Position numbers and translations under genes: made by a program
In this document: positions 8,308 to 52,509 of the stretch, piece by piece
Layout of the letters: the number at the start of each line of letters is the position of its first letter
How positions within the stretch are numbered: position 1 is the stretch's first letter
The notes under the pieces: generated by a model
The model's input: only the letters and a program-made list of their open reading frames with translations
The model's database searches: none
Told to the model about the DNA's origin: nothing
Origin: Clostridia bacterium
GTDB lineage: Bacteria; Bacillota; Clostridia; Christensenellales; UBA3700
NCBI GenBank assembly: GCA_013316135.1
Contig: WSNH01000001.1
Span: 1 to 57,791 of the forward strand
Direction of reading: 5' to 3'
DNA length: 57,791 nucleotides

Positions 8308-9074
8308 TAAGGCTTGAAGAGGACGCTTACAGAGGTTACTCTCTTTGCAAAATGCAAGAGAGTGACTTTGTTTTTGTCAAGTCTTTTCTCGATAACCAAA
8401 GATCTATGCTGGATATAATCGAGTTCTTTTATCCTTATAAGGACGAGGAATTGCTTGCTGTGTTGACAAGCGGCTGTTTTTGGGGACTGTTTGACGGAGC
8501 AAAATTGATTGCCACTTTTGCAATAGATTTTGATGAGGAGTATGCAATTACGCTTGCAAATCTTATCAATTCCTTTTATGATATAGGCATAGAGAGAGTC
8601 TACGAGAGTTCAGGACTTATGGTAGCGGAAGAATATAGAGGTCAGGGAATAGCAAAATATTTACTTAAGTTGGCGTGCGATGAAGCGAAAAAAAGGCGTA
8701 TAGCGATATGCGGGGTAGTCCACACCCAAAATGTAGCGAGTATGTCCTCATTTTTTTCTATGGGCTTTGAAATGAGAGCAACTTGGCGTCTAAGCGACGG
8801 ATACGATTTTATTTATCTTCTAAAGAGGTTTGACAAGGCAGAGTTTGACGATGAAGGAATAAATTTCCAAAATGTATTGCAATCGAAATGTAATTGTGAT
8901 AAAATTAAAGATGTGATTAGGGTGACTAATACTCATACAAAAGAGCAAAACGCCTTACTATTCGACGGATACGTGGGGGTAGGTTGCCAAGACACGGAAA
9001 TTTATTTTAAGAAAAAGGAGCAAAATCATTATGAACAAGAATCAACTCATCGCTGCAATCGCATCAAAGGCTGA
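8304..9074 (+). CDS. GNAT-family N-acetyltransferase
   Basis: 256 aa with a GNAT core. The acetyl-CoA loop AEEYRGQGIAKYLLKLACDE is near residues 110-130, followed by a typical NVASMSSFFSMGF region. Translationally coupled to argF (ATGA overlap). The substrate is unknown; position suggests, but does not show, a link to arginine metabolism. The last 15 codons overlap the HU gene by 44 nt, so either the C-terminus is genuinely overlapping or the frame has drifted. Confidence 0.8.
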   Translation: MIRLEEDAYRGYSLCKMQESDFVFVKSFLDNQRSMLDIIEFFYPYKDEELLAVLTSGCFWGLFDGAKLIATFAIDFDEEYAITLANLINSFYDIGIERVYESSGLMVAEEYRGQGIAKYLLKLACDEAKKRRIAICGVVHTQNVASMSSFFSMGFEMRATWRLSDGYDFIYLLKRFDKAEFDDEGINFQNVLQSKCNCDKIKDVIRVTNTHTKEQNALLFDGYVGVGCQDTEIYFKKKEQNHYEQESTHRCNRIKG

Positions 9075-30534: not shown

Positions 30535-31668
30535 TTATAAATTGTGTTTCAGTAGGAATTGATTGCTGATACACTTAAAGCTGATGGTGTTGTCGTGGTC
30601 TCTTATTACAACACCTTCCCTAAGTGTATCGCACAAAGTAGATTTGCCGTCTGCGTAGGCAATCATTTCATCGACGGTAGGAAGCAGCTTAAAGTCCGCG
30701 TTGAGTATCGGAACCCATTTAATTCCGAAGTCGTGCATCACATCTGTGGCAATTGAGCTGTCCATTTTGACGCCGTCGATTACAAGGTTGAAGGAATAGA
30801 AGTCAATTCCCTTAAGACCATATTTGTTCTTCTGGATGCCCTCGCCAATGGTTTCGCCCTGTAATACAACAGTCGTTGCGCCGTACTTCTCCATAATTTT
30901 CAAGAGAACATTGCGAATGTCGTACTTTTGAGCGATTTGATGATAAACGTTCTCGTCGTAGAAACACTTCTGGGTGATGTCGGCTTGGCGGACGTTCCTT
31001 GAACACACCGCGAAGTCATATTTTCTTTTCTTTTCTTTTCTCAACCCGAAGCTCGTAGAGGTGCCGTCAATTTTTTCAGTGACGACCATTGACTTGTCCT
31101 TGTATGTATCGAGGACGAAAGGCATATTTTGCAATCTCGTTTCGTCCGTTTTGACTATCCAGTCAGGGAAGTTCTTGGGTTTCTTTTTGGGTGCAAGAAG
31201 TTTGTAAACGGTCTTTCTGAACCATTTGAACTTCATAAACCACAAGAAGACTTTGTTCTTGAACAGTTTCTTATGGCGCTGCTTAATTGCCGCCGCGGGG
31301 TCTTTAACCTGTTGCTTCGGAACTTCGTCCTCAATCTGCTTAATCTTAAGTACATCGGTTACGTCATCGCCGAGCACATAAGCTTTCCCGTCGTGCAAGA
31401 TTGAGAGAGGGAAGATGATGCCTTGCGAAATTACACCGCGCATCTTCATTGTCTTAATCTTATAGTGCTTCGATTCAAGGAATGCGAAGTCAGGGTTGTC
31501 GGCAGGCATAATGCTGTCAATCTCAACGTAGATTGCAAGATCGCCAACCTTAAATTCGTTTTTCTTCACAATACATTGCCAGCCAAGTATGCCAGCGAGT
31601 TCAATTTTGTCGGCTCCCTCAATAGGACGGAGCCACGCAATTTGTTCAATGTGAGCAAGCTTTCTCAT
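30535..31668 (-). CDS. RNA ligase, DRB0094/Rnl5-type
   Basis: ATP-dependent RNA ligase. It is 377 aa. An N-terminal OB-like domain (IEGADKIELAGILGWQCIVK ... GDLAIYVEIDSIMP) is typical of the Deinococcus Rnl family. The nucleotidyl lysine is in EKIDGTS (K about 199), with later QGETIGEG and EGVVIRD (motifs III-IV). A basic, hydrophobic insertion at about residues 130-165 is unusual. The family seals 3'-OH/5'-phosphate nicks, and the matching end-healing activity (Pnk-HD) is encoded 8 kb away. Confidence 0.88.
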   Translation of the reverse strand: MRKLAHIEQIAWLRPIEGADKIELAGILGWQCIVKKNEFKVGDLAIYVEIDSIMPADNPDFAFLESKHYKIKTMKMRGVISQGIIFPLSILHDGKAYVLGDDVTDVLKIKQIEDEVPKQQVKDPAAAIKQRHKKLFKNKVFLWFMKFKWFRKTVYKLLAPKKKPKNFPDWIVKTDETRLQNMPFVLDTYKDKSMVVTEKIDGTSTSFGLRKEKKRKYDFAVCSRNVRQADITQKCFYDENVYHQIAQKYDIRNVLLKIMEKYGATTVVLQGETIGEGIQKNKYGLKGIDFYSFNLVIDGVKMDSSIATDVMHDFGIKWVPILNADFKLLPTVDEMIAYADGKSTLCDTLREGVVIRDHDNTISFKCISNQFLLKHNL

Positions 31669-39524: not shown

Positions 39525-40421
39525 TTATGCTCCAGCAACGTCGCACTGATGAAAGGCATTTAATAAATGTGACAATTCATCGGGGAGCGCTGCGCTATAT
39601 TTTGTATTGAGAAATGGATCCATATGTACGTTTATAAGCCAATAAATTAAAGCTCTTTGTTTGGTATGTAACCCAAGCGTTTCTTCATAGCCGATAGCAA
39701 AGTAACTGCCCACATTGTGGTGGTTGTAGAAGTGTGCAATATCACACGGCTCGCCACGGCTATTCTTAAAGGCTTTTACAAACTTCTTACCGATGTCATG
39801 AAGACTTGCGGCAACAAGTAATGTGATTGCAACACCTTTACCTTGACGCCTACCTTGCTGCAATTTTGCCGCCTCGGTCATAACGTTTAAGGTGTGTTCT
39901 TTAACAGTGTTATTGTGATGAGGATTATCGTGTTCGCAGTTAAGCCAGTCCTCATAATTACTACGCTTGTAGGGCTCGTCATTCAGTTTGAACTCAATAC
40001 TATCCCAGCCTTCGTCGTAATAGGGAGGCTGGAAGTTGAGAAGCATACGCTTAATTACGTTCTCACCAACATTACGATTTCTACCAGTATCTCTTGCAAC
40101 GCAAGTTTCGTATCTTGCCCATACTACATAGGCAATCTTCTCGCAAGGGATTGTGATGCTTGATAAGAGGTGCTTACGCTTTTTGCGGCTGATGTTAGTT
40201 GCGTCATATATGATATTCTTTCCGTCTTTCAATGCGGCGATGGTGCGTCTTTGCATTTCCTCAAATATTTTTGCGGGGTCATCCTGTATCGTTTCGTCGC
40301 CATAGAATTCTTTACGTATTGCATCGGATGATAAGATAGTGGTGTTGCTATCGGCGAGCTGACGTGCAACTTCACTTTTGCCAGACCCCGGCAAGCCTAT
40401 GAGCATATAAAACTTAACCAT
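39525..40421 (-). CDS. polynucleotide kinase fused to HD-domain phosphohydrolase (Pnk-HD)
   Basis: 298 aa from the Met at 40421, overlapping the upstream gene by 8 nt. N-terminal kinase: YMLIGLPGSGKSEVARQ P-loop, then YDATN and RDTGRNRNVGE. C-terminal HD domain: HTLNVM ... AASLHDIGKKF ... HNVGSYFAIGY. Bacterial HD-Pnk enzymes with the opposite domain order phosphorylate 5'-OH and remove 2',3'-cyclic or 3' phosphates from RNA, giving ends an Rnl ligase can seal. An end-healing role is therefore likely. Confidence 0.85.
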   Translation of the reverse strand: MVKFYMLIGLPGSGKSEVARQLADSNTTILSSDAIRKEFYGDETIQDDPAKIFEEMQRRTIAALKDGKNIIYDATNISRKKRKHLLSSITIPCEKIAYVVWARYETCVARDTGRNRNVGENVIKRMLLNFQPPYYDEGWDSIEFKLNDEPYKRSNYEDWLNCEHDNPHHNNTVKEHTLNVMTEAAKLQQGRRQGKGVAITLLVAASLHDIGKKFVKAFKNSRGEPCDIAHFYNHHNVGSYFAIGYEETLGLHTKQRALIYWLINVHMDPFLNTKYSAALPDELSHLLNAFHQCDVAGA

Positions 40422-40776
40422 AGACCACCTCACCGAAAATTGCATACTGAATGATTACATCGGCGTCTTCGGCATCAATGGATGAGGGATCAATCTTTCC
40501 TTCGTGGAGGACATCGAGACCACCTTCGCCGATAGCCTTTGCAAGTCCAGCAAGGAACTTGTCCAGTGTCAGTTCATATGTTTCATCTTCCTCGGAGTCG
40601 TGCAGCTTAAGGGTGCCGCCGCGAGATATTTGTTCGCTGGCATACTCGCCAAGATAATCGCCAACAACTTCGGCGTCATCGCACCAATATGTAATGCCAC
40701 CTTCTAAGGCGGTAGCCATTATATCGTCTATACACTCATTGTCGAGTTCGACTTTGTAATTGATGTTAAGTTCCAT
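40414..40776 (-). CDS. hypothetical acidic protein
   Basis: 120 aa from the Met at 40776 (GGAG 9 nt upstream). No domain recognised. An operator copy at 40788-40800 lies just ahead of the ribosome-binding site, so this is probably the first gene of the repair/NAD block. Confidence 0.6.
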   Translation of the reverse strand: MELNINYKVELDNECIDDIMATALEGGITYWCDDAEVVGDYLGEYASEQISRGGTLKLHDSEEDETYELTLDKFLAGLAKAIGEGGLDVLHEGKIDPSSIDAEDADVIIQYAIFGEVVYG

Positions 40777-41776: not shown

Positions 41777-42496
41777 TTAGAGACAAAAGCCGAAAGCGAC
41801 GCCGCTACTGTAGATGGCATAGTAGTTACCGCTGCCACCGGAGTTGCTGACACAGCAGAAGAAGTAGCTACTAAAGTAAAACGGAGAGCGAAGCCACTTA
41901 TAATCGTCAAAGTTTCTTCCTTCGTCCGATACAAAGTATTCATACTGTTCACCTTCGCCGGGGCGAGAATATTGAACTTCACCTCGGATTTCCACTTCGC
42001 TGAAGAGGAAGCACTTATCCGTAGTCATTATAATCTCTCTGCTGCCACCGCCAGCGGAAGTTCGCTTAACCACTGGCTTGATGTTATTACGGATTATTTC
42101 GGGAAGAAGGCGGAATATCCTTTCCATACGAGTTCTCATCTCGCAATCTTTCCAGCTTGTTCTATTAGTGTTTTCTCTGTTCATACGGAACAGACCGTCA
42201 TAAGTTAAGATGCCGAATGTAGTCTTTGCGTTTCCTTCGCCTTCGGCGAGGTCGTCTTTATCTGTATCAAGCAAAATCATTTTGACTTTCTCGCCGGTAT
42301 ACAATTCGATTGTTTTGTAGTCACCAACTCCGAAGCGCTCAGTAACATCCTCGTGAGTATTGATATACTCGACGAGTTCCTCGAGGGAGCAGTCAATTTC
42401 TTGCGGCACGTGAGTTTTCGTTTTCTTGAATATTTTGCAATTGTGGCAGTGGGGCTTTTCGCCAAACAAATCGCAGAAACTGCATTTTGCTTCCAT
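41777..42496 (-). CDS. DUF6273 / C-type-lectin-like protein with N-terminal zinc finger
   Basis: 239 aa. N-terminal CSFCDLFGEKPHCHNCKIF (zinc). The C-terminal domain has FGILTYDGLFRMN, YKWLRSPFYF and ends SSGVAFGFCL, matching DUF6273, a fold related to targets of diversity-generating retroelements. The last 25 residues are rich in S, Y, N and G, as in adenine-mutagenised variable regions. No template repeat was found, and the nearby reverse transcriptase is not DGR-type. Confidence 0.75.
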   Translation of the reverse strand: MEAKCSFCDLFGEKPHCHNCKIFKKTKTHVPQEIDCSLEELVEYINTHEDVTERFGVGDYKTIELYTGEKVKMILLDTDKDDLAEGEGNAKTTFGILTYDGLFRMNRENTNRTSWKDCEMRTRMERIFRLLPEIIRNNIKPVVKRTSAGGGSREIIMTTDKCFLFSEVEIRGEVQYSRPGEGEQYEYFVSDEGRNFDDYKWLRSPFYFSSYFFCCVSNSGGSGNYYAIYSSGVAFGFCL

Positions 42497-43503: not shown

Positions 43504-44652
43504 TTAACCGGCACGGAGAACATCTTTGATAGTTTGTTCAACGTCCTTATTAAATTTTGCACTGTACGACTTAATAATCGTCTCAATTGTCGCGCCTTCT
43601 ACCATCTTATAGTAAGAGATAAGCCCTTGAAGGTGCTGTGTATCTTCGAGGCTCCATACATTGCCGTTCTTCTCGTCGTTCATAAACGAGAACAGCATTG
43701 CCTTGAAAACCTTTTTCTTGGAATGACCGATTGTGATTTGGTTATCGCTGTTGAGCATCACGCCCAAGTTCCAGTTTCGACCAGCGGAACTTCCGTATCT
43801 CGTCTTTGTCATGTTGAGAGAGAAGGGGGCGTGGAACTTGTTAGCAACTATGTCTACGATGGTGTCTTGAACCTCGCGCCAATTAAACGCCAAGTCGCTC
43901 GAAAGGATGATATCGTCCGCATATCTTGTGTAGACGAGGTGTGGAGTCATCTCTCTCGCGGTCTTTGCAATGTAGTGGTCTATGGGTATCATAAACAAGT
44001 TGGTAAGGGTAGGGCTAATGGGGGTGCCCTGCGGCAAACCGTTGTTGAGATAGCATATCGACAATGCTTTTACCAGAGCTTCTCTTCCGTTAGGTCTTGC
44101 GACGATTTCGTTGAAGGGGAAGATGGTTTCAAGCTGCGAGATGATAAATTCGGGCTTCGAGCTTCCAAAGAAGTCGTGGAAGTCGAGCTTCAAGAACCAG
44201 CGCGACTTATTGCGCTGATGTCTTTTAACTGCATCGATAGTGCTTCTGCCTTTTACATAGGCAAATGCCGCGGTATGATAGCTTGCATAAAGTTTCTTCT
44301 CAAAAAGATATTTGAGTTCCCTCAGTGCGTTCATTAAATCGTCAAGCGGTGCATTTATCTGACGAAGACCGCCGCTACGCTTGGGGATTTTGAAACTCCT
44401 ATACAGAGTGGACTTGTCTTCGGTGTTGATGAGATTGATGTACTTTTCGTTAAATCTTACAAGAGCCGCAATCATTTCGTCAAAATCCGTATCGTCGAGG
44501 AGTTTTTGCGGTGTGTTGTTTCTGAACACGGTCTTAGTATCGTGAGTGTCTTCCATCTGGCGCTCAAACACGGACTCGTTCATTCCGTTCAAAATATCGT
44601 CAAAAGAAATCTGATGGAACTTTTGACTTACGGGTACTGTTATGTACGGCAT
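43504..44652 (-). CDS. reverse transcriptase, retron / group-II-intron-like
   Basis: 382 aa. RT motifs in order: FKIPKRSGGLRQINAP, LKLDFHDFFGS, NNGLPQGTPISPTLTNLFM, and catalytic YTRYADDIILSS (about residues 240-251). NLGVMLNSDNQITIGHSKKK matches the segment after motif 5. There is no DGR-type IGNxxSQ motif and no maturase or endonuclease domain, which favours a retron-like or unassigned bacterial RT. It is preceded by a 300-nt structured leader and followed by RNase HI. Confidence 0.88.
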   Translation of the reverse strand: MPYITVPVSQKFHQISFDDILNGMNESVFERQMEDTHDTKTVFRNNTPQKLLDDTDFDEMIAALVRFNEKYINLINTEDKSTLYRSFKIPKRSGGLRQINAPLDDLMNALRELKYLFEKKLYASYHTAAFAYVKGRSTIDAVKRHQRNKSRWFLKLDFHDFFGSSKPEFIISQLETIFPFNEIVARPNGREALVKALSICYLNNGLPQGTPISPTLTNLFMIPIDHYIAKTAREMTPHLVYTRYADDIILSSDLAFNWREVQDTIVDIVANKFHAPFSLNMTKTRYGSSAGRNWNLGVMLNSDNQITIGHSKKKVFKAMLFSFMNDEKNGNVWSLEDTQHLQGLISYYKMVEGATIETIIKSYSAKFNKDVEQTIKDVLRAG

Positions 44653-44953: not shown

Positions 44954-45634
44954 TTAGTTTCGGTATGCGTCTACTTCAAAGTTGAACGCATCAATTGTTA
45001 CAATCTTTTTCAACTCGTTCTTGCGAACGAAGTTCATAAAGTTCGATACTCCATACGAGCAAACAATTCTTACCGTAGGAGCAACGCCCATTTCAACGTG
45101 GCACGCCGTCATAGGAGTGGACTCCTGAGCTTCTTCGTGAGAGAACTCCATACTTTTGAGAAAGTTCTCAACGCTTTTCGGATCGTGCCAATCCGCAGCG
45201 TAGTGTTGTGCATCTTCAAGCCTTGTTCTAAAATCAAACATTGCTTTGATGGACATATTTGCTTTGTTCTTCGTCGCAATCGTGCGGCGCAGGTCAATGT
45301 TGTCAACGCAAAGGAAGACATATCCGTCAAGCCTTGTCTTTTCAGTCCAGCCGTCGCTGCAAATTTTTATATCGTTCTTCGCTTCGGGGTTGATAGCGAG
45401 TAACATATCTCTTACGGCTTCCGTCTTTAAGCGTTTGATGTCAGCGTTCACAAACATCTGGTTTGCAAGATTGTGAGCCGATACAACGTCGAAATCGTAG
45501 AGGGATATTTTCGTGAGCCCAAGGCGAATGAGCAACTCCGCGACCGTCGAACCAACGGAGCCACACCCAATGATGTGGCAACGTTTCGTGACGTCCAACG
45601 GGTTGAAGTAATCCTGAGATTTTACAAGGTTCAT
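44954..45634 (-). CDS. ThiF/E1-like adenylating protein (PRTRC-type)
   Basis: 226 aa from the Met at 45634, 1 nt after the JAMM stop. Rossmann core: CHIIGCGSVGSTVAELLIRL, LYDFDVVSAHNLANQ, and FLCVDNIDLRR. It would adenylate the C-terminus of a ubiquitin-like protein. No CxxC zinc pairs; a candidate thioester Cys is in PMTACHVEMG. Gene order Ubl, E2-like, JAMM, E1 matches the ThiF-containing PRTRC cassette. Confidence 0.85.
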   Translation of the reverse strand: MNLVKSQDYFNPLDVTKRCHIIGCGSVGSTVAELLIRLGLTKISLYDFDVVSAHNLANQMFVNADIKRLKTEAVRDMLLAINPEAKNDIKICSDGWTEKTRLDGYVFLCVDNIDLRRTIATKNKANMSIKAMFDFRTRLEDAQHYAADWHDPKSVENFLKSMEFSHEEAQESTPMTACHVEMGVAPTVRIVCSYGVSNFMNFVRKNELKKIVTIDAFNFEVDAYRN

Positions 45635-45635
45635 A

Positions 45636-46544
45636 TTAGTAATGTCCTCCGTATCTGCCGTAGATGCCGGCGTAGTAGTCATCATCGTCGGGGTCGTCAT
45701 CATTAAGCAAACTTCCTTGACGCGCCTCAGCTTTTGCGCCGCGTTTCGGCGAGGTGGACTTGGGTGTCGTCGTAGTTTCGCTATGGCTGTTACCACCATA
45801 GCTGCCACCGCCGTAGCTGTTACCACCGTAGTTTCCGCCGCTGTATCCGTAAGATTCCGTTACAACTTTTTTGGCTTCATCAAGGAAGTCGGTAAGCCAA
45901 TCGCAATCTTCGACTACAATTTTGATTTCGTCGGCGGTTGTAGACTTCGAGTAAAGCGCATTATTTTGCAGGTCGTAGATTTCACCACTTATGTCGCCGC
46001 GCTTGTTGAAGATAAGGAAGATGTAGAAGAGGTCTGACGTAGCGGAAGGGGTACCGAAATTATTGAGGATGTTGTGACGATACGTCATATCAACTCCGGA
46101 CGGCGTAACTCCCATATTTACGTGAGAGTGACCGTGGAAGCGAAGCACATTGAACGTATCGTTATCAAGAGCGTCGAGCCATTTCTCGTACTCCGTCTGG
46201 TCGGAGATGACCGTCGCACCGGTAACTTTGTGAGGGAAGATGAGTACGTCCTTAATGTAGAACGCATCTGCTGCGGTTCTCTCAACAACTCCGTGCCATT
46301 CGACTTCGGTGGAGTAGGTGTGAACCAGCGCAAAAATCTTCATATATGCTTGCGCCGAGAATGTTATTGTTGCTTTACGGTCGTCTTTAACTTCTTTTAA
46401 TTTGAAGTTAAGTGTGACGCCGTCGGCTTGGTCGTTCTGGAATTTTCTTTTCTTTAAGTTGCGGCTTTCTACCAGCAACTGTGCTTGTGCCGAGCGCAAA
46501 AACTCGGCGATTTCCGTTTCGGTTGCAAAAATTTTCTTAGCCAT
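45636..46544 (-). CDS. JAB/JAMM metalloprotease (deubiquitinase-like, PRTRC-A type)
   Basis: 302 aa from the Met at 46544. A perfect JAMM motif HSHVNMGVTPSGVD (HxH, seven residues, S, two residues, D) lies near residue 150 with an upstream glutamate in EVEWHGVVE. The C-terminal 70 residues are a low-complexity Gly/Tyr/Ser then acidic tail. It likely trims or removes the Ubl. The start overlaps the E2-like stop by 8 nt. Confidence 0.87.
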   Translation of the reverse strand: MAKKIFATETEIAEFLRSAQAQLLVESRNLKKRKFQNDQADGVTLNFKLKEVKDDRKATITFSAQAYMKIFALVHTYSTEVEWHGVVERTAADAFYIKDVLIFPHKVTGATVISDQTEYEKWLDALDNDTFNVLRFHGHSHVNMGVTPSGVDMTYRHNILNNFGTPSATSDLFYIFLIFNKRGDISGEIYDLQNNALYSKSTTADEIKIVVEDCDWLTDFLDEAKKVVTESYGYSGGNYGGNSYGGGSYGGNSHSETTTTPKSTSPKRGAKAEARQGSLLNDDDPDDDDYYAGIYGRYGGHY

Positions 46545-49131: not shown

Positions 49132-50688
49132 TTAACCCTTAACAGCTTGTTCTACGGGAGAATAACGTTCGCTGTTAAGTTGTTCGAGTAAGCACTCAAA
49201 CGGGTCGGTGGAATTGCTGAGAACCATCTTAACGATGGCGGGACTGAAGCCACTTACCAAAGCAACGCCGAGGTCGTTCTCTTTTACGGGGATGGTTCCC
49301 GTGCGGCTGCAAATATTCCAGAACACCAAGCGGGGGAGCTTGTAGCCGTGATCTGCATAACGTTTTGCGATAACCGCGAAAAGCTTTTTATCAATTCCGC
49401 GACCACCATAGCCAGTGTGACCAAAGTGGGAAGTCGTTGCGCAACTATCAAACTCCATATCGGAAAGGATAAGAATGTTTGCGGGAAGCTCGGACTGCTT
49501 CATGTGGGCATTGATCGCCGTCGTCAATATCAAGTCAAACACGGCTTCGATATTGGTATTCGCTACCTCGTTGTGAGTAAGTGCAATGCCGATTTTGTCG
49601 CGCAAAGACTTGCCGCTTGCAAGATTAACGAGTTGCGGGTGTTCGCTGAACGTGATGTACTTGTCCTTGAACTGTCCCGAGCTTCTTTCGGCAAAGTAGA
49701 TTGCCAAAGCATTCGCAACGTCAAGACAGCTAACACCCGTTCCGCCGACTACAGAAGTCATACTGCCCGAGCCGTCGGCTACGCAAATCGTGTTGCCGCT
49801 TTCTTTAACGTAATTGGGGAGTGCTTTCCACATTTCCTCGAGTGCCGTATCGCGATTTTTCAGTGACCAGCCCGATTTGTATTTGTGAACGATATCGTGA
49901 GGGAAGAGGACGCCGGCATTGATTTTTGTCTCGCCTTTTTCAAGTTTGCCGAGATATTCTCTGCGGCGCTTCTCATCGTTACGAAGGAATGCGTTGTTGT
50001 AGATGAGGTTTGCCCTCGAAGGAACAGCAGAGTAGTCGATGCTCGACCATTCTCGGTTACTCATCTTAGCCTCGACAACATTCGTGTAAGAGCGAAGTGC
50101 GGTGAGCATTTTACGGTACTGTCTTTCGGTCATACCGAGTTTGCTGATGAGAATCTTTGCAAGGCGGCGAGTTTCGCTGGACGAAGCATTTGCCGACGGC
50201 ATCCACTTTGCGCAGAGCGAAATCGCGTTCTTGCGTCCCATTTGGTACATATCGTTATTCAGCTGCTCTTTGACGATTGCAACTGCGTTGTCGCAAAGGC
50301 TCGTATCGAGAAGAACAACGAGGTTGTCCCAGCGGGTGTATTCGGGAATGAGCTTGAGAAGTTTGACCGCTACGTCCGCTTCGTTTGTGGCAAGGTATTC
50401 CATACCGATACGGAACAGTCTGCGCTCTCCGAGTCCGCCGCGAACATCGCCGGCGAAGAAGAGCCACTTGATTACGAGAAGTTTATTCTCGAAGAACGCC
50501 TTTGTAAATCTCTGCTTGATGCGCTCCGGCGTTTCATTGCGCAGGGAAGATACCGCGAAGTTGAGGTCGAGCAATTCTTTGCCCGAGGTACGATATCCAA
50601 CCGCACCGTTTTCCGTAACGGACTCGTTGAACTCTTCGCCGATAGTGCGCCTGAGATTTTCCATAAAGTTGTTCATAGTTACCTCCAA
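49132..50688 (-). CDS. DUF2828 protein (TROVE-like N-terminus, vWA C-terminus)
   Basis: 518 aa. The N-terminal helical repeat region (about residues 10-280) resembles TROVE/Ro60-type scaffolds (FFAGDVRGGLGERRLFRIGM). The C-terminal vWA domain (about 300-500) has the MIDAS motif VADGSGSM. Relatives occur in phages and plasmids. Ro60 binds misfolded and Y RNAs, so location directly after the interrupted-tRNA array is suggestive. GGAGG fixes the start, and an ACAGCAA element occupies its 5' leader. Confidence 0.82.
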   Translation of the reverse strand: MEVTMNNFMENLRRTIGEEFNESVTENGAVGYRTSGKELLDLNFAVSSLRNETPERIKQRFTKAFFENKLLVIKWLFFAGDVRGGLGERRLFRIGMEYLATNEADVAVKLLKLIPEYTRWDNLVVLLDTSLCDNAVAIVKEQLNNDMYQMGRKNAISLCAKWMPSANASSSETRRLAKILISKLGMTERQYRKMLTALRSYTNVVEAKMSNREWSSIDYSAVPSRANLIYNNAFLRNDEKRRREYLGKLEKGETKINAGVLFPHDIVHKYKSGWSLKNRDTALEEMWKALPNYVKESGNTICVADGSGSMTSVVGGTGVSCLDVANALAIYFAERSSGQFKDKYITFSEHPQLVNLASGKSLRDKIGIALTHNEVANTNIEAVFDLILTTAINAHMKQSELPANILILSDMEFDSCATTSHFGHTGYGGRGIDKKLFAVIAKRYADHGYKLPRLVFWNICSRTGTIPVKENDLGVALVSGFSPAIVKMVLSNSTDPFECLLEQLNSERYSPVEQAVKG

Positions 50689-50715
50689 TGAATTAAAATA
50701 TTAAATCTTAACTCC

Positions 50716-50775
50716 AAGACGGGATTCAAAAAGAGATTTCAAGTCCTTGTTTTGTAACGTTGCTGTTACCGTCTT
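50716..50775 (-). ncRNA. ACAGCAA element 6, in the DUF2828 leader
   Basis: A 7-bp helix (50769-50775 with 50716-50722, AAGACGG/CCGTCTT) is followed on its 5' strand by TAACAGCAACGTTACA. Same layout as elements 4 and 5. Confidence 0.55.
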
Positions 50776-50796
50776 TGAGTTGATGGTACGAAAAAA

Positions 50797-50914
50797 TGGG
50801 AGCGGTGGGGCTCGAACCCACGACCACGAGCTTAACAGGCTATTCGATAAAATTGCTGTAAGAGATTTGGCAAACCTCTCGATTTACGCGCTCTACCAAC
50901 TGAGCTACGCTCCC
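50797..50914 (-). tRNA. tRNA-Asn (GTT) interrupted by a 45-nt intron-like insertion
   Basis: Exon 1 is 50914-50887 (28 nt), insertion 50886-50842 (45 nt), exon 2 50841-50798 (44 nt), discriminator A at 50797; CCA is not encoded. Joining the exons gives a perfect cloverleaf: acceptor GGGAGCG/CGCTCCC, D GCTC/GAGC, anticodon stem CGAGC/GCTCG, loop CTGTTAA, T stem GTGGG/CCCAC. The junction falls between positions 28 and 29; shifting it one base either way breaks a pair. The insertion has an 8-bp hairpin followed by TACAGCAA. A T-run follows the gene. The insertion is too short to be a group I or II intron. Confidence 0.85.
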
Positions 50915-50920
50915 AAATGA

Positions 50921-51037
50921 TGGAGACGGCAGGACTCGAACCTGCAACCTTCGGCACCCTATGCAAAAGAAAAGTTGCTGTATGAGCCTAACAAGACTCG
51001 TCTTTAACGACGCTCTATCCAGTTGAGCTACATCTCC
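50921..51037 (-). tRNA. tRNA interrupted by a 43-nt intron-like insertion (anticodon reads AGG, Pro)
   Basis: Exon 1 51037-51008 (30 nt), insertion 51007-50965 (43 nt), exon 2 50964-50922, discriminator A at 50921; no CCA. Joined: acceptor GGAGATG/CGTCTCC (one wobble), D GCTC/GAGC, anticodon stem TCGGC/GCCGA, T stem GCAGG/CCTGC. The joined loop is ATAGGGT, giving AGG (Pro), with an unusual A32-U38. The junction is between positions 29 and 30. The insertion has a GAGTC/GGCTC hairpin, then ATACAGCAA. AAAGA near its 5' end can pair with TCTTT near its 3' end. Confidence 0.78.
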
Positions 51038-51053
51038 ATAAAGGTAGGAAAGA

Positions 51054-51150
51054 GGGAAGAATGTGAGTTGTTGAGGAAATATACTTTCTTCTACTGTATT
51101 AAATTGCTGTGTGCGAACCCTACCCATTTCGCTTAAAACACAATCTTCCC
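51054..51150 (-). ncRNA. ACAGCAA element 3 inside a larger stem
   Basis: An outer 12-bp helix with one mismatch (51139-51150 with 51054-51065) encloses a hairpin GCGAA/TTCGC (51113-51132), directly followed by ACACAGCAATTTAATA. This is the same hairpin-then-motif layout as the two tRNA insertions. The flanks do not form a recognisable tRNA. Confidence 0.5.
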
Positions 51151-51154
51151 TTGC

Positions 51155-51335
51155 AAGGCACAAAACATATAGAAATCTTTTACCCGAAAAATTTGATCTA
51201 TGTAATTGCTGTAAGTGCCTTATATAGTTTTTTATCGGCGACAACTATCAACGCCGGCAGCCCTCCAATATTTTAAGCCCAGGGGTTGCCTAAACAGGCT
51301 CTCATCAGCCGACGCCACTGATGAGGAATGTAATA
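51155..51335 (-). ncRNA. ACAGCAA element 4 and upstream multi-hairpin RNA
   Basis: A 7-bp helix AAGGCAC/GTGCCTT (51215-51221 with 51155-51161) carries TTACAGCAATTACATA next to its 5' strand. Upstream on the minus strand lie hairpins CTCATCAG/CTGATGAG (51301-51325), GCCT/AGGC and CGGCG/CGCCG, all without a reading frame. The CTGATGAG resembles hammerhead ribozyme sequence, but the paired GAAA core is missing. Confidence 0.5.
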
Positions 51336-51336
51336 C

Positions 51337-51429
51337 AAGACGCTTTCGTTTGTTACGGGAATCGAACCCGCTTGAATTCTGTTACAGGAGAATTTGTTTA
51401 CCTTTTATGTAAGTTGCTGTAAGCGTCTT
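51337..51429 (-). ncRNA. ACAGCAA element 5 with a tRNA 3'-half-like sequence
   Basis: A 7-bp helix AAGACGC/GCGTCTT (51423-51429 with 51337-51343) encloses TTACAGCAACTTACATA, then an arm ATTCT/AGAAT with an 8-nt loop CCTGTAAC and a T-arm GCGGGTTCGATTCCCGT. No matching 5' tRNA half is next to it. It could be a split, permuted or decayed tRNA. Confidence 0.5.
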
Positions 51430-51440
51430 TCTTGTTGTCG

Positions 51441-51603: not shown

Positions 51604-52509
51604 TTAACTTTTCGGTGCGGCGGAGTAGGTGGCTTTATGCTCGGCGAGCCAGCGTTGTACAAACCAAAGCTGACCACAGCCACCGCCAATATCATCTTGT
51701 CCAGCAGGGTCAAAGATACGAGTGTTGTATCCCTTGTTTATAAAGCTTTGCTCAACAGAACGAATAAAGTCTAAGTCTTTGTAGCCGGCGTCTTTCATCG
51801 TTTCATCACTACTGCAAACGACAGAAAAGGTGAAATTAAACACAAGCGGGCTAAACAAAGCCTGTAACCTTACGATGTCTGCACTGGTGGAATTGACAGC
51901 ACCTTCGACGCAATAGTTGAGGTAGGGATGTCTACCCGTTTTATGCCACCACATAATGCCATAATCACGTATTTCTTCGAGCGTTAATTTATTCTTGTAA
52001 GGAATAAGCTTGTTGCGATCCTCGTCATTGCTGCGATGTATGCTGAACTGCAACCCTATTTTGTCGATTTTTTTGGAAAGCTCAAGGAACCCCATTAAAG
52101 CTCGAGGATTGTTAGGTGCAATAGTAGATATGAGTAATTGTGCGGTGGGGTACAACACATTCAAACGCTCTATCGCGGTCGCTACCGCATCCCAATTCAA
52201 CAAGGGTTCACCCATCGACATAAACATGATTTGAAATTTGCGAACTTCTTGCGTGTTTATGTTTTGGTCTTCGATGACCGTTTTGACTTGCGAAACTATT
52301 TCATCGCTCGTCAGGTTTCTCACAAACCGCTTACCGGTTCCGCAAAATGAGCAGCCAACGGGGCAACCGCTTTGTGTGGAACAGCAAATCACCGTCCTTT
52401 CGGCGAAGGAATTGTATCGATAGAGTACAGATTCAGCGACAAAATCATTGCCACTAAATACATACTTAAATACGTTACCCTCGGAACTATCGAACCTTTT
52501 GAATTCCAT
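51604..52509 (-). CDS. RlmN-like radical SAM protein
   Basis: 301 aa. Radical SAM cluster motif SGCPVGCSFCGTGKRFVRNL (CxxxCxxC, about residues 48-60) and MSMGEPLLNWD match RlmN/Cfr-type RNA methyltransferases. QFSIHRSNDEDRNKLIPYKNK and the C-terminal GGGCGQL are also typical. It is shorter than RlmN (about 350 aa), with a reduced N-terminal domain. RlmN methylates C2 of adenosine in 23S rRNA and at tRNA position 37; being first in line before the tRNA array makes a tRNA substrate attractive but unproven. Confidence 0.83.
   Translation of the reverse strand: MEFKRFDSSEGNVFKYVFSGNDFVAESVLYRYNSFAERTVICCSTQSGCPVGCSFCGTGKRFVRNLTSDEIVSQVKTVIEDQNINTQEVRKFQIMFMSMGEPLLNWDAVATAIERLNVLYPTAQLLISTIAPNNPRALMGFLELSKKIDKIGLQFSIHRSNDEDRNKLIPYKNKLTLEEIRDYGIMWWHKTGRHPYLNYCVEGAVNSTSADIVRLQALFSPLVFNFTFSVVCSSDETMKDAGYKDLDFIRSVEQSFINKGYNTRIFDPAGQDDIGGGCGQLWFVQRWLAEHKATYSAAPKS

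Follow-up and report, generated by a model that had tools for sequence, protein, structure and literature searches.

An array of ACAGCAA elements beside a DUF2828 gene

We analyzed a 57,791-nt stretch of the genome of a Clostridia bacterium (contig WSNH01000001.1, positions 1 to 57,791; hereafter the window), in which a short non-coding array carries repeated copies of the heptamer ACAGCAA next to RNA helices. The array spans 50713–51431 and lies just upstream of a minus-strand gene for a DUF2828 and DUF7788 protein (the ATG at 50676 may be its start), with a minus-strand RlmN/Cfr-like radical S-adenosylmethionine (radical-SAM) gene at 51604–52509 on its other flank. A preliminary description made from the sequence alone had placed six minus-strand copies of ACAGCAA in 714 bp, and we found all of them at exactly those positions (50760, 50853, 50975, 51104, 51206 and 51414, the first occupying 50760–50766). 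About 0.06 copies would be expected per strand of such a stretch (Poisson P(≥6) ~5e-11 by our own arithmetic), and the window as a whole holds 20 against 9.2 expected. That description had also divided the copies into three with a closed hairpin and three with an outer stem, a split that held, but its ordering of copies 1–3 versus 4–6 did not: the hairpin copies are those at 50853, 50975 and, weakly, 51104, and the outer-stem copies those at 50760, 51206 and 51414. What it had overlooked is that two of the hairpin copies, 50853 and 50975, are each part of a tRNA gene and that a tRNA T-arm lies within the copy at 51414 (Table 1).

Table 1. Elements of the array, the adjacent DUF2828 gene and two possible RNA-repair genes in the window.
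Feature	Position	Strand	Description	Evidence
Copy 1	50716..50775	-	Outer-stem, gene-proximal: AAGACGG-UA-ACAGCAA ... hairpin with anticodon-like loop CUUGAAA (UGA) ... CCGUCUU	Covariance model R1 48.2 bits, E 6e-10 (copy 1 is one of the 28 training rows of R1); alignment A3
Copy 2	50797..50914	-	tRNA-like, anticodon GUU, A73; core inserted in anticodon stem	Rfam tRNA 48.1 bits, 58-nt unaligned stretch
Copy 3	50921..51037	-	tRNA-like, loop AUAGGGU, anticodon AGG; core inserted in anticodon stem	Rfam tRNA 49.6 bits
Copy 4	51054..51150	-	Weak hairpin form, 5-bp GCGAA/UUCGC then AC-ACAGCAA, inside acceptor-like stem GGGAAGA/UCUUCCC; degenerate member	Sequence
Copy 5	51155..51221	-	Outer-stem AAGGCAC-UU-ACAGCAA ... 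hairpin with loop UUCGGGU (CGG-like) ... GUGCCUU	R1 35.8 bits, E 9e-7; fold z -2.4
Copy 6	51337..51429	-	Outer-stem AAGACGC-UU-ACAGCAA ... anticodon-arm-like hairpin (loop with CUGUAAC) and T-arm GCGGGUUCGAUUCCCGU ... GCGUCUU; without D-arm	R1 29.5 bits, E 4e-5; fold z -3.1
DUF2828+DUF7788 protein, 518 aa	49132..50688	-	Predicted Ro60 fold, predicted RNA-binding; proposed partner of the RNAs	Pfam PF25043, PF11443; AlphaFold 2 model, mean predicted local distance difference test (pLDDT) 86.8
RNA ligase, DRB0094-like	30535..31668	-	Possible repair partner, carried on the same element	PF09414 E 3e-16; TIGR02306 139.6 bits, below cut-off 151
AAA kinase + HD protein	39525..40445	-	Pnkp-like kinase, possible RNA end-healing enzyme	PF13671, PF01966; weak TIGR04075

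Within the two tRNA-like copies, whose Rfam tRNA matches carry a 54–58-nt unaligned stretch, the insert is the core itself. In copy 2 it occupies 50842–50886 (45 nt) and consists of a hairpin, UU and ACAGCAA, and its excision restores a perfect stem CGAGC/GCUCG with loop CUGUUAA; in copy 3 it occupies 50965–51007 (43 nt) and consists of a GAGUC hairpin, AU and ACAGCAA, with excision restoring a perfect stem UCGGC/GCCGA. A mechanically called 134-aa open reading frame (50840–51244, minus strand) overlaps copies 2–5, running through tRNA sequence, and almost certainly does not represent a gene. Between copies 5 and 6, a GC-rich structured minus-strand stretch (51226–51340) without ACAGCAA contains a CUCAUCAG/CUGAUGAG hairpin and a GGCG...CGCC segment in which AUAGUU/AACUAU could form an H-type pseudoknot; this stretch, which gave no Rfam match and folded no better than shuffles, may encode a further small RNA.

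A permuted RNA core and its link to DUF2828

To evaluate the element beyond the window, we collected its motif across loci related by descent, such that the counts below are not independent events. Among all loci collected, 356 of 746 unique ACAGCAA motifs possessed an exact 7-bp partner for bases -9 to -3 at one fixed offset, compared with 8–13 of 209–290 (4–6%) for five control anchors. The partner lay downstream in 287 of these motifs (the outer form) and upstream in 69 (the hairpin form), and both forms shared the consensus A-AAGRCRC-nn-ACAGCAA paired with GYGYCUU-G. The G that follows CUU on the partner strand is unpaired and present in 65 of the 69 hairpin forms and 249 of the 287 outer forms; in the hairpin form it opens what is mostly a 4-nt, GNNA-type loop; the outer form has no loop there. 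Because this G is kept at the same place in both, the outer form corresponds to the hairpin form with its GNNA tetraloop opened. That one RNA core exists in two circular permutations, as the preliminary description had proposed, is thus strongly supported.

Several further measurements bear on the same core. A strong stem flush against the motif, also described earlier, was found in 169 of 208 unique copies upstream of DUF2828 versus 23.6 in shuffles, and of the consensus first suggested, helix plus ACAGCAA stood while the (C)UU-rich tail proved only a tendency. In the A3 alignment of 28 minimal elements, double changes occurred at all 12 pairs of P2 and the anticodon-arm stem and 99.1% of cells were paired, a covariation that is partly built in since the rows were picked for pairing, the shuffle and anchor controls being the unbiased tests. 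The preliminary description had staked its proposal on the existence of covarying homologues, and homologues, flush-stem excess and covariation were all found. A second helix, P1, between the insert start and the bases after ACAGCAA, had first been believed by eye and was rejected (14 of 70 versus 15.2 in a swap control).

This core tracks DUF2828. Homologues of the protein occur in 681 of 50,697 phage records as well as in many genomes and IMG/VR contigs, and in the 500 bp upstream of the gene at 176 loci ACAGCAA was the commonest 7-mer, on the sense strand only (sense versus antisense counts in successive upstream bins: 65 versus 0, 78 versus 0, 57 versus 1), with T-loop and D-arm 7-mers likewise among the top-ranked words. 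Within 300 nt upstream, 99 of 163 usable loci carried ACAGCAA (antisense, 0), and the relaxed motif [ACT]CAGCA occurred at 118 in sense and 24 in antisense. Searching with a covariance model (R1) built from 28 sequences matched only the window copies in the 1.49-Mb genome, and 10 of 12 DUF2828 phage records, mostly beside the gene, on either side and sometimes far off. None of 20 tRNA-bearing contigs without DUF2828 matched, and among 22 control contigs (controls were matched for tRNA content and roughly for size) the only matches were in a contig, G103, that itself encodes DUF2828. From the opposite direction, a blind pattern search for D-arm ... ACAGCAA ... T-arm returned 48 IMG/VR stretches, and DUF2828 was encoded in 26 of 35 tested interrupted-tRNA contigs versus 3 of 35 contigs with ordinary tRNAs. 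At the DNA level the array had no homologue in plasmids and only tRNA-like pieces in phages.

Placement relative to the gene varies. Elements lie directly downstream of DUF2828 in Staphylococcus phage 6ec (L017, record 8339–8546) and mycobacteriophage Faith1 (L015, record 41991–42247), so they are not solely 5' leaders, and in Erwinia phage SNUABM_50 the element is ~200 kb from the gene. Two 412-kb huge-phage contigs in IMG/VR (L181, L182) carry an interrupted tRNA (GUU) with only a weak DUF2828-like match, possibly a divergent Ro60. Overall, we consider a partnership between the RNA and DUF2828 highly probable. Between the two earlier guesses, a protein-recognised element and a small ribozyme, we prefer the former because the element tracks a Ro60-fold protein; the latter gained no positive support.

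That fold is a prediction. Compared with Ro60 (1yvp), the AlphaFold model of the window protein reached a VIA Z of 22.1 over 414 residues, no other whole-length fold matched, and the ten top-ranked VIA matches and the 11 best Foldseek matches were all Ro60/TROVE. Across 1yvp, 2i91, 2nvo and the Ro60 of Thermus phage phiLo (9l5y), likeness to DUF2828 comprises a HEAT-like ring plus vWA domain over ~390–416 residues (VIA Z 13–22), and residues D301, S303 and S305, resembling a metal-ion-dependent adhesion site, are invariant in 59 sequences. In sequence the two differ, with 12–16% identity and separate Pfam families (DUF2828, DUF7788): hmmscan of the window protein gave only these two and no match to Pfam TROVE (PF05731), and a DUF2828 profile against PDB sequences returned nothing credible, leaving fold comparison as the means needed. 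Some mycobacteriophage records already label a DUF2828 protein 'Ro-like', and in the literature DUF2828 was met only in unrelated plant papers.

Attached modules and displayed anticodons

Three types of module are attached to the core: anticodon stem-loops, permuted tRNAs with capped acceptor stems, and tRNAs with the core inside the anticodon arm. In the minimal type, a hairpin sits within the outer helix and is in many cases an anticodon stem-loop with the 7-nt loop CUNNNAA; the loops seen include CUUUUAA, CUGUUAA, CUUCCAA, CUGCUAA, CUUCUAA, CUGAAAA and CUUAAAA (UUU, GUU, UCC, GCU, UCU, GAA and UAA, respectively); 131 such bare outer-stem elements without a T-arm lie near the gene in 74 loci. 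The permuted type runs from the anticodon arm or 3' half through T-arm, capped acceptor and D-arm, with the outer helix closing all, as in an Enterococcus phage, mycobacteriophage Faith1 and Clostridia. Among 18 permuted tRNA-like candidates (2 of which, the window pair and its relative L216, turn out to be interrupted tRNAs in tandem), the acceptor linker measured 1–5 nt in half and 1–21 nt overall, and CCA was present in 2. For the interrupted type, in which the tRNA parts keep their usual order and the core takes its hairpin form, excision of the insert restored a 5-bp anticodon stem in 73 of 92 non-redundant tRNAs versus 35.0 (maximum 41) after first-exon swaps, and the acceptor stem was intact in 49 of 59.

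We then compared anticodons on conserved bodies. Of 24 interrupted-tRNA pairs at least 85% identical outside the anticodon, 9 shared their anticodon and 15 differed (including Lys/Asn, Lys/Thr, Lys/Asp and Asn/Ile), compared with 121 and 13 of 134 ordinary tRNA pairs, in which the amino acid differed once; window copy 2 (GUU) and L216 (UUU), for example, are 97% identical outside the anticodon. Such differences on near-identical bodies suggest selection on the displayed anticodon itself.

Related objects already stand in phage annotations. The oversized 'tRNA-Pseudo / tRNA-OTHER' genes of KVP40, Cronobacter phage S13 and Vibrio phage 6E35.1a are the same objects, a tRNA plus an insert of hairpin and CAGCA/CUGCA/CCGCA core variants, annotated as pseudogenes or unknown and not recognised as a family. 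In KVP40 and S13 these interrupted tRNAs (L008 516–628, 639–762 and 2313–2428; L010 9869–10111) carry core CAGCA or CUGCA and loop UGAYAA, one being annotated tRNA-Ser.

Interpretation, alternatives and known systems

We interpret the locus as an array of Y-RNA-like RNAs encoded next to a phage-type Ro60 (DUF2828) that most likely binds them, each joining the core to an anticodon-displaying module (probability roughly 0.7) and possibly acting as a decoy for anticodon nucleases. The core is the 7-bp helix AAGRCRC/GYGYCUU bordered by G...A, followed by two nucleotides and ACAGCAA, through which DUF2828 would bind, and the effector module on each RNA displays a tRNA anticodon arm. In one permutation the GNNA tetraloop closes the helix and the core is inserted in a tRNA anticodon arm; in the other the loop is open and the helix surrounds either an anticodon stem-loop on its own or a permuted tRNA whose acceptor is capped. 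By presenting the anticodon arm, the ribonucleoprotein may divert anticodon nucleases as a decoy or inhibit them competitively, with phage RNA-repair enzymes as possible helpers where present; in the window, candidate helpers are the ligase and kinase of Table 1. The decoy role taken separately is a tentative step, somewhat short of even odds, which we draw from the tRNA mimicry, the anticodon swapping, RNA-repair genes in some phages and a published suggestion for YrlA (PMC7790460). Equally tentatively, the decoy RNAs bound by Ro60 may form an exchangeable library in large phages, each RNA presenting a particular tRNA anticodon arm on the permutable ACAGCAA core, with anticodons swapped to keep pace with host anticodon nucleases; this would be a counter-defence found in phages of many hosts.

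Several observations weigh against this interpretation, the row selection in A3 among them. Copy 4 was missed by R1, folds no better than shuffles and is degenerate. Of the 163 usable loci, 58 have no ACAGC[AG] within 300 nt upstream and 45 lack even [ACT]CAGCA, so variants, other placements or losses exist. DUF2828 was not found on nine tested interrupted-tRNA contigs, although several of these are fragments and two resemble chance matches. In one subgroup the insert lies in the anticodon loop, and its members have neither U33 nor a recognisable anticodon, which is at odds with an anticodon decoy. Enrichment of ATP-grasp RNA ligases in carriers was not convincing (6 of 22 versus 4 of 22 over the cut-off; 12 of 22 versus 5 of 22 at E 0.001).

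The main alternative to the decoy step is a general Ro60 RNA-chaperone, gating or tethering role, in which the RNAs would hold DUF2828 together with a nuclease or a repair enzyme, tRNA mimicry would serve to attract proteins that bind tRNA, and anticodon nucleases would have no part. With the RNA–DUF2828 partnership common to both readings, precedent comes from Deinococcus, where a Y RNA tethers Rsr to PNPase (PMC7790460), and RNA-repair genes accompany some DUF2828 genes; anticodon exchange on a kept tRNA body is left unexplained, and we regard this role as a serious contender, though a doubtful one. Preserved exon pairing makes a new tRNA-splicing system the strongest rival in formal terms; in it, hairpin copies would be introns and outer copies permuted tRNA genes, with excision at the core by a ribozyme or protein to yield functional tRNAs. 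Restored anticodon stems and intact acceptors fit it, intron and permuted arrangements are the topology a splicing core would need, the window carries ligase and kinase genes, and Listeria phage LMTA-34 has a gene annotated as a tRNA splicing ligase near DUF2828. Splicing nevertheless sits poorly with the many bare outer-stem elements, with permuted acceptors often capped by 1–5 nt and almost without CCA (and so lacking obvious usable tRNA ends), with changes of amino-acid identity on near-identical bodies, and with loop-insert members that restore no normal anticodon loop, and RNA ligase is not clearly enriched; we therefore disfavour it as unlikely. RtcB was considered as the splicing ligase and rejected, the host genome encoding none.

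Cis-regulation, in which DUF2828 binds the gene-proximal leader copy to autoregulate and the other copies are titrating duplicates, accords with copies commonly 16–100 nt upstream of the start and with a locus (L004) that has a single upstream copy. It seems improbable given arrays of up to six copies, the downstream (6ec, Faith1) and distant (SNUABM_50) placements that point to trans-acting RNAs, and tRNA mimicry that it leaves unexplained, and autoregulation by one copy may nonetheless coexist with our interpretation. A small self-cleaving ribozyme in two permutations is very unlikely: the brief stretch of conserved unpaired bases directly against a helix, the circular permutation, which known small ribozymes also show, and a fixed G beside the open helix end recall one, but there is no Rfam ribozyme match, the interrupted-tRNA set has no conserved second helix (P1 failed), a core of one helix plus seven bases is smaller than any catalytic core known to us, and a strict link to a Ro60-fold protein would be unexpected.

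Two other window genes stand apart from these arguments. The radical-SAM protein immediately upstream of the array is short (301 aa), and its substrate could be an RNA of the array system. A Retron-St85-like reverse transcriptase (43504–44652, minus strand; 190 bits, below the cut-off of 235) adjoins an E1-like gene (44954–45826) in the same integrated element.

If the decoy interpretation is true, counter-defence RNAs have until now been annotated as tRNA pseudogenes or intergenic DNA. DUF2828, often annotated only as an RNA-binding or hypothetical protein, gains a probable partner RNA class, several oversized 'pseudo-tRNAs' of phages such as KVP40 are explained, and there is a natural RNA core that takes two circular permutations through the opening or closing of one tetraloop. 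Anticodon swapping also gives the published idea of anticodon-nuclease inhibition by Y RNAs the form of an arms-race prediction that can be tested directly. The RNA family is absent from Rfam 15, and we found no paper on phage Y RNAs of this type in the open-access literature, key subscription Y-RNA papers being outside the comparison; it is a widespread, so far unnamed phage small-RNA family.

Among known systems, the tRNA genes of Archaea and algae that are permuted or contain introns, and are spliced at a bulge-helix-bulge, likewise have reversed halves or anticodon-arm interruptions and use one motif for both. By contrast, we saw no bulge-helix-bulge motif, acceptors are often capped with little room for end maturation, and anticodons are swapped. 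Another comparison is the bacterial Y RNA YrlA (RF02553), paired with the Ro60 orthologue Rsr (TROVE, PF05731); it too is encoded beside a Ro60-fold protein and has a closing stem with an internal conserved block. YrlA mimics a circularly permuted tRNA, with T-arm, capped acceptor and D-arm, as does a subset of the DUF2828-linked RNAs at other loci; in the window only copy 6 approaches this module. Hughes et al. 2020 (PMC7790460) raised competitive inhibition of an anticodon nuclease as a possible role of the tRNA-like domain of YrlA.

We tried filing the RNAs as YrlA and rejected it, the window scoring 32.6 bits and the best phage copy 47.9 bits against a gathering score of 69, sub-threshold values that are not evidential given that tandem ordinary tRNAs in many genomes reach ~30–41 bits. 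Four genuine TROVE loci in Firmicutes (L365–L368) encode Y RNAs of the same plan, with an anticodon-arm hairpin of Asn-type GUU (loop CUGUUAA or UUGUUAA) before the T-arm, but these have a different conserved block without the ACAGCAA core, a lone ACAGCAA in L366 lying outside the Y RNA. The RF02553 consensus itself shows no anticodon arm, and L365–L368 fall below the Rfam cut-off or are without a listed YrlA match. The YrlA consensus has no ACAGCAA core and its partner is TROVE rather than DUF2828 by sequence, whereas the DUF2828-linked core is itself permutable, is also inserted in unpermuted tRNAs, may carry an anticodon arm alone, and occurs in arrays with many anticodons. The phage RNAs are thus Y-RNA-like by layout and outside the YrlA family by test.
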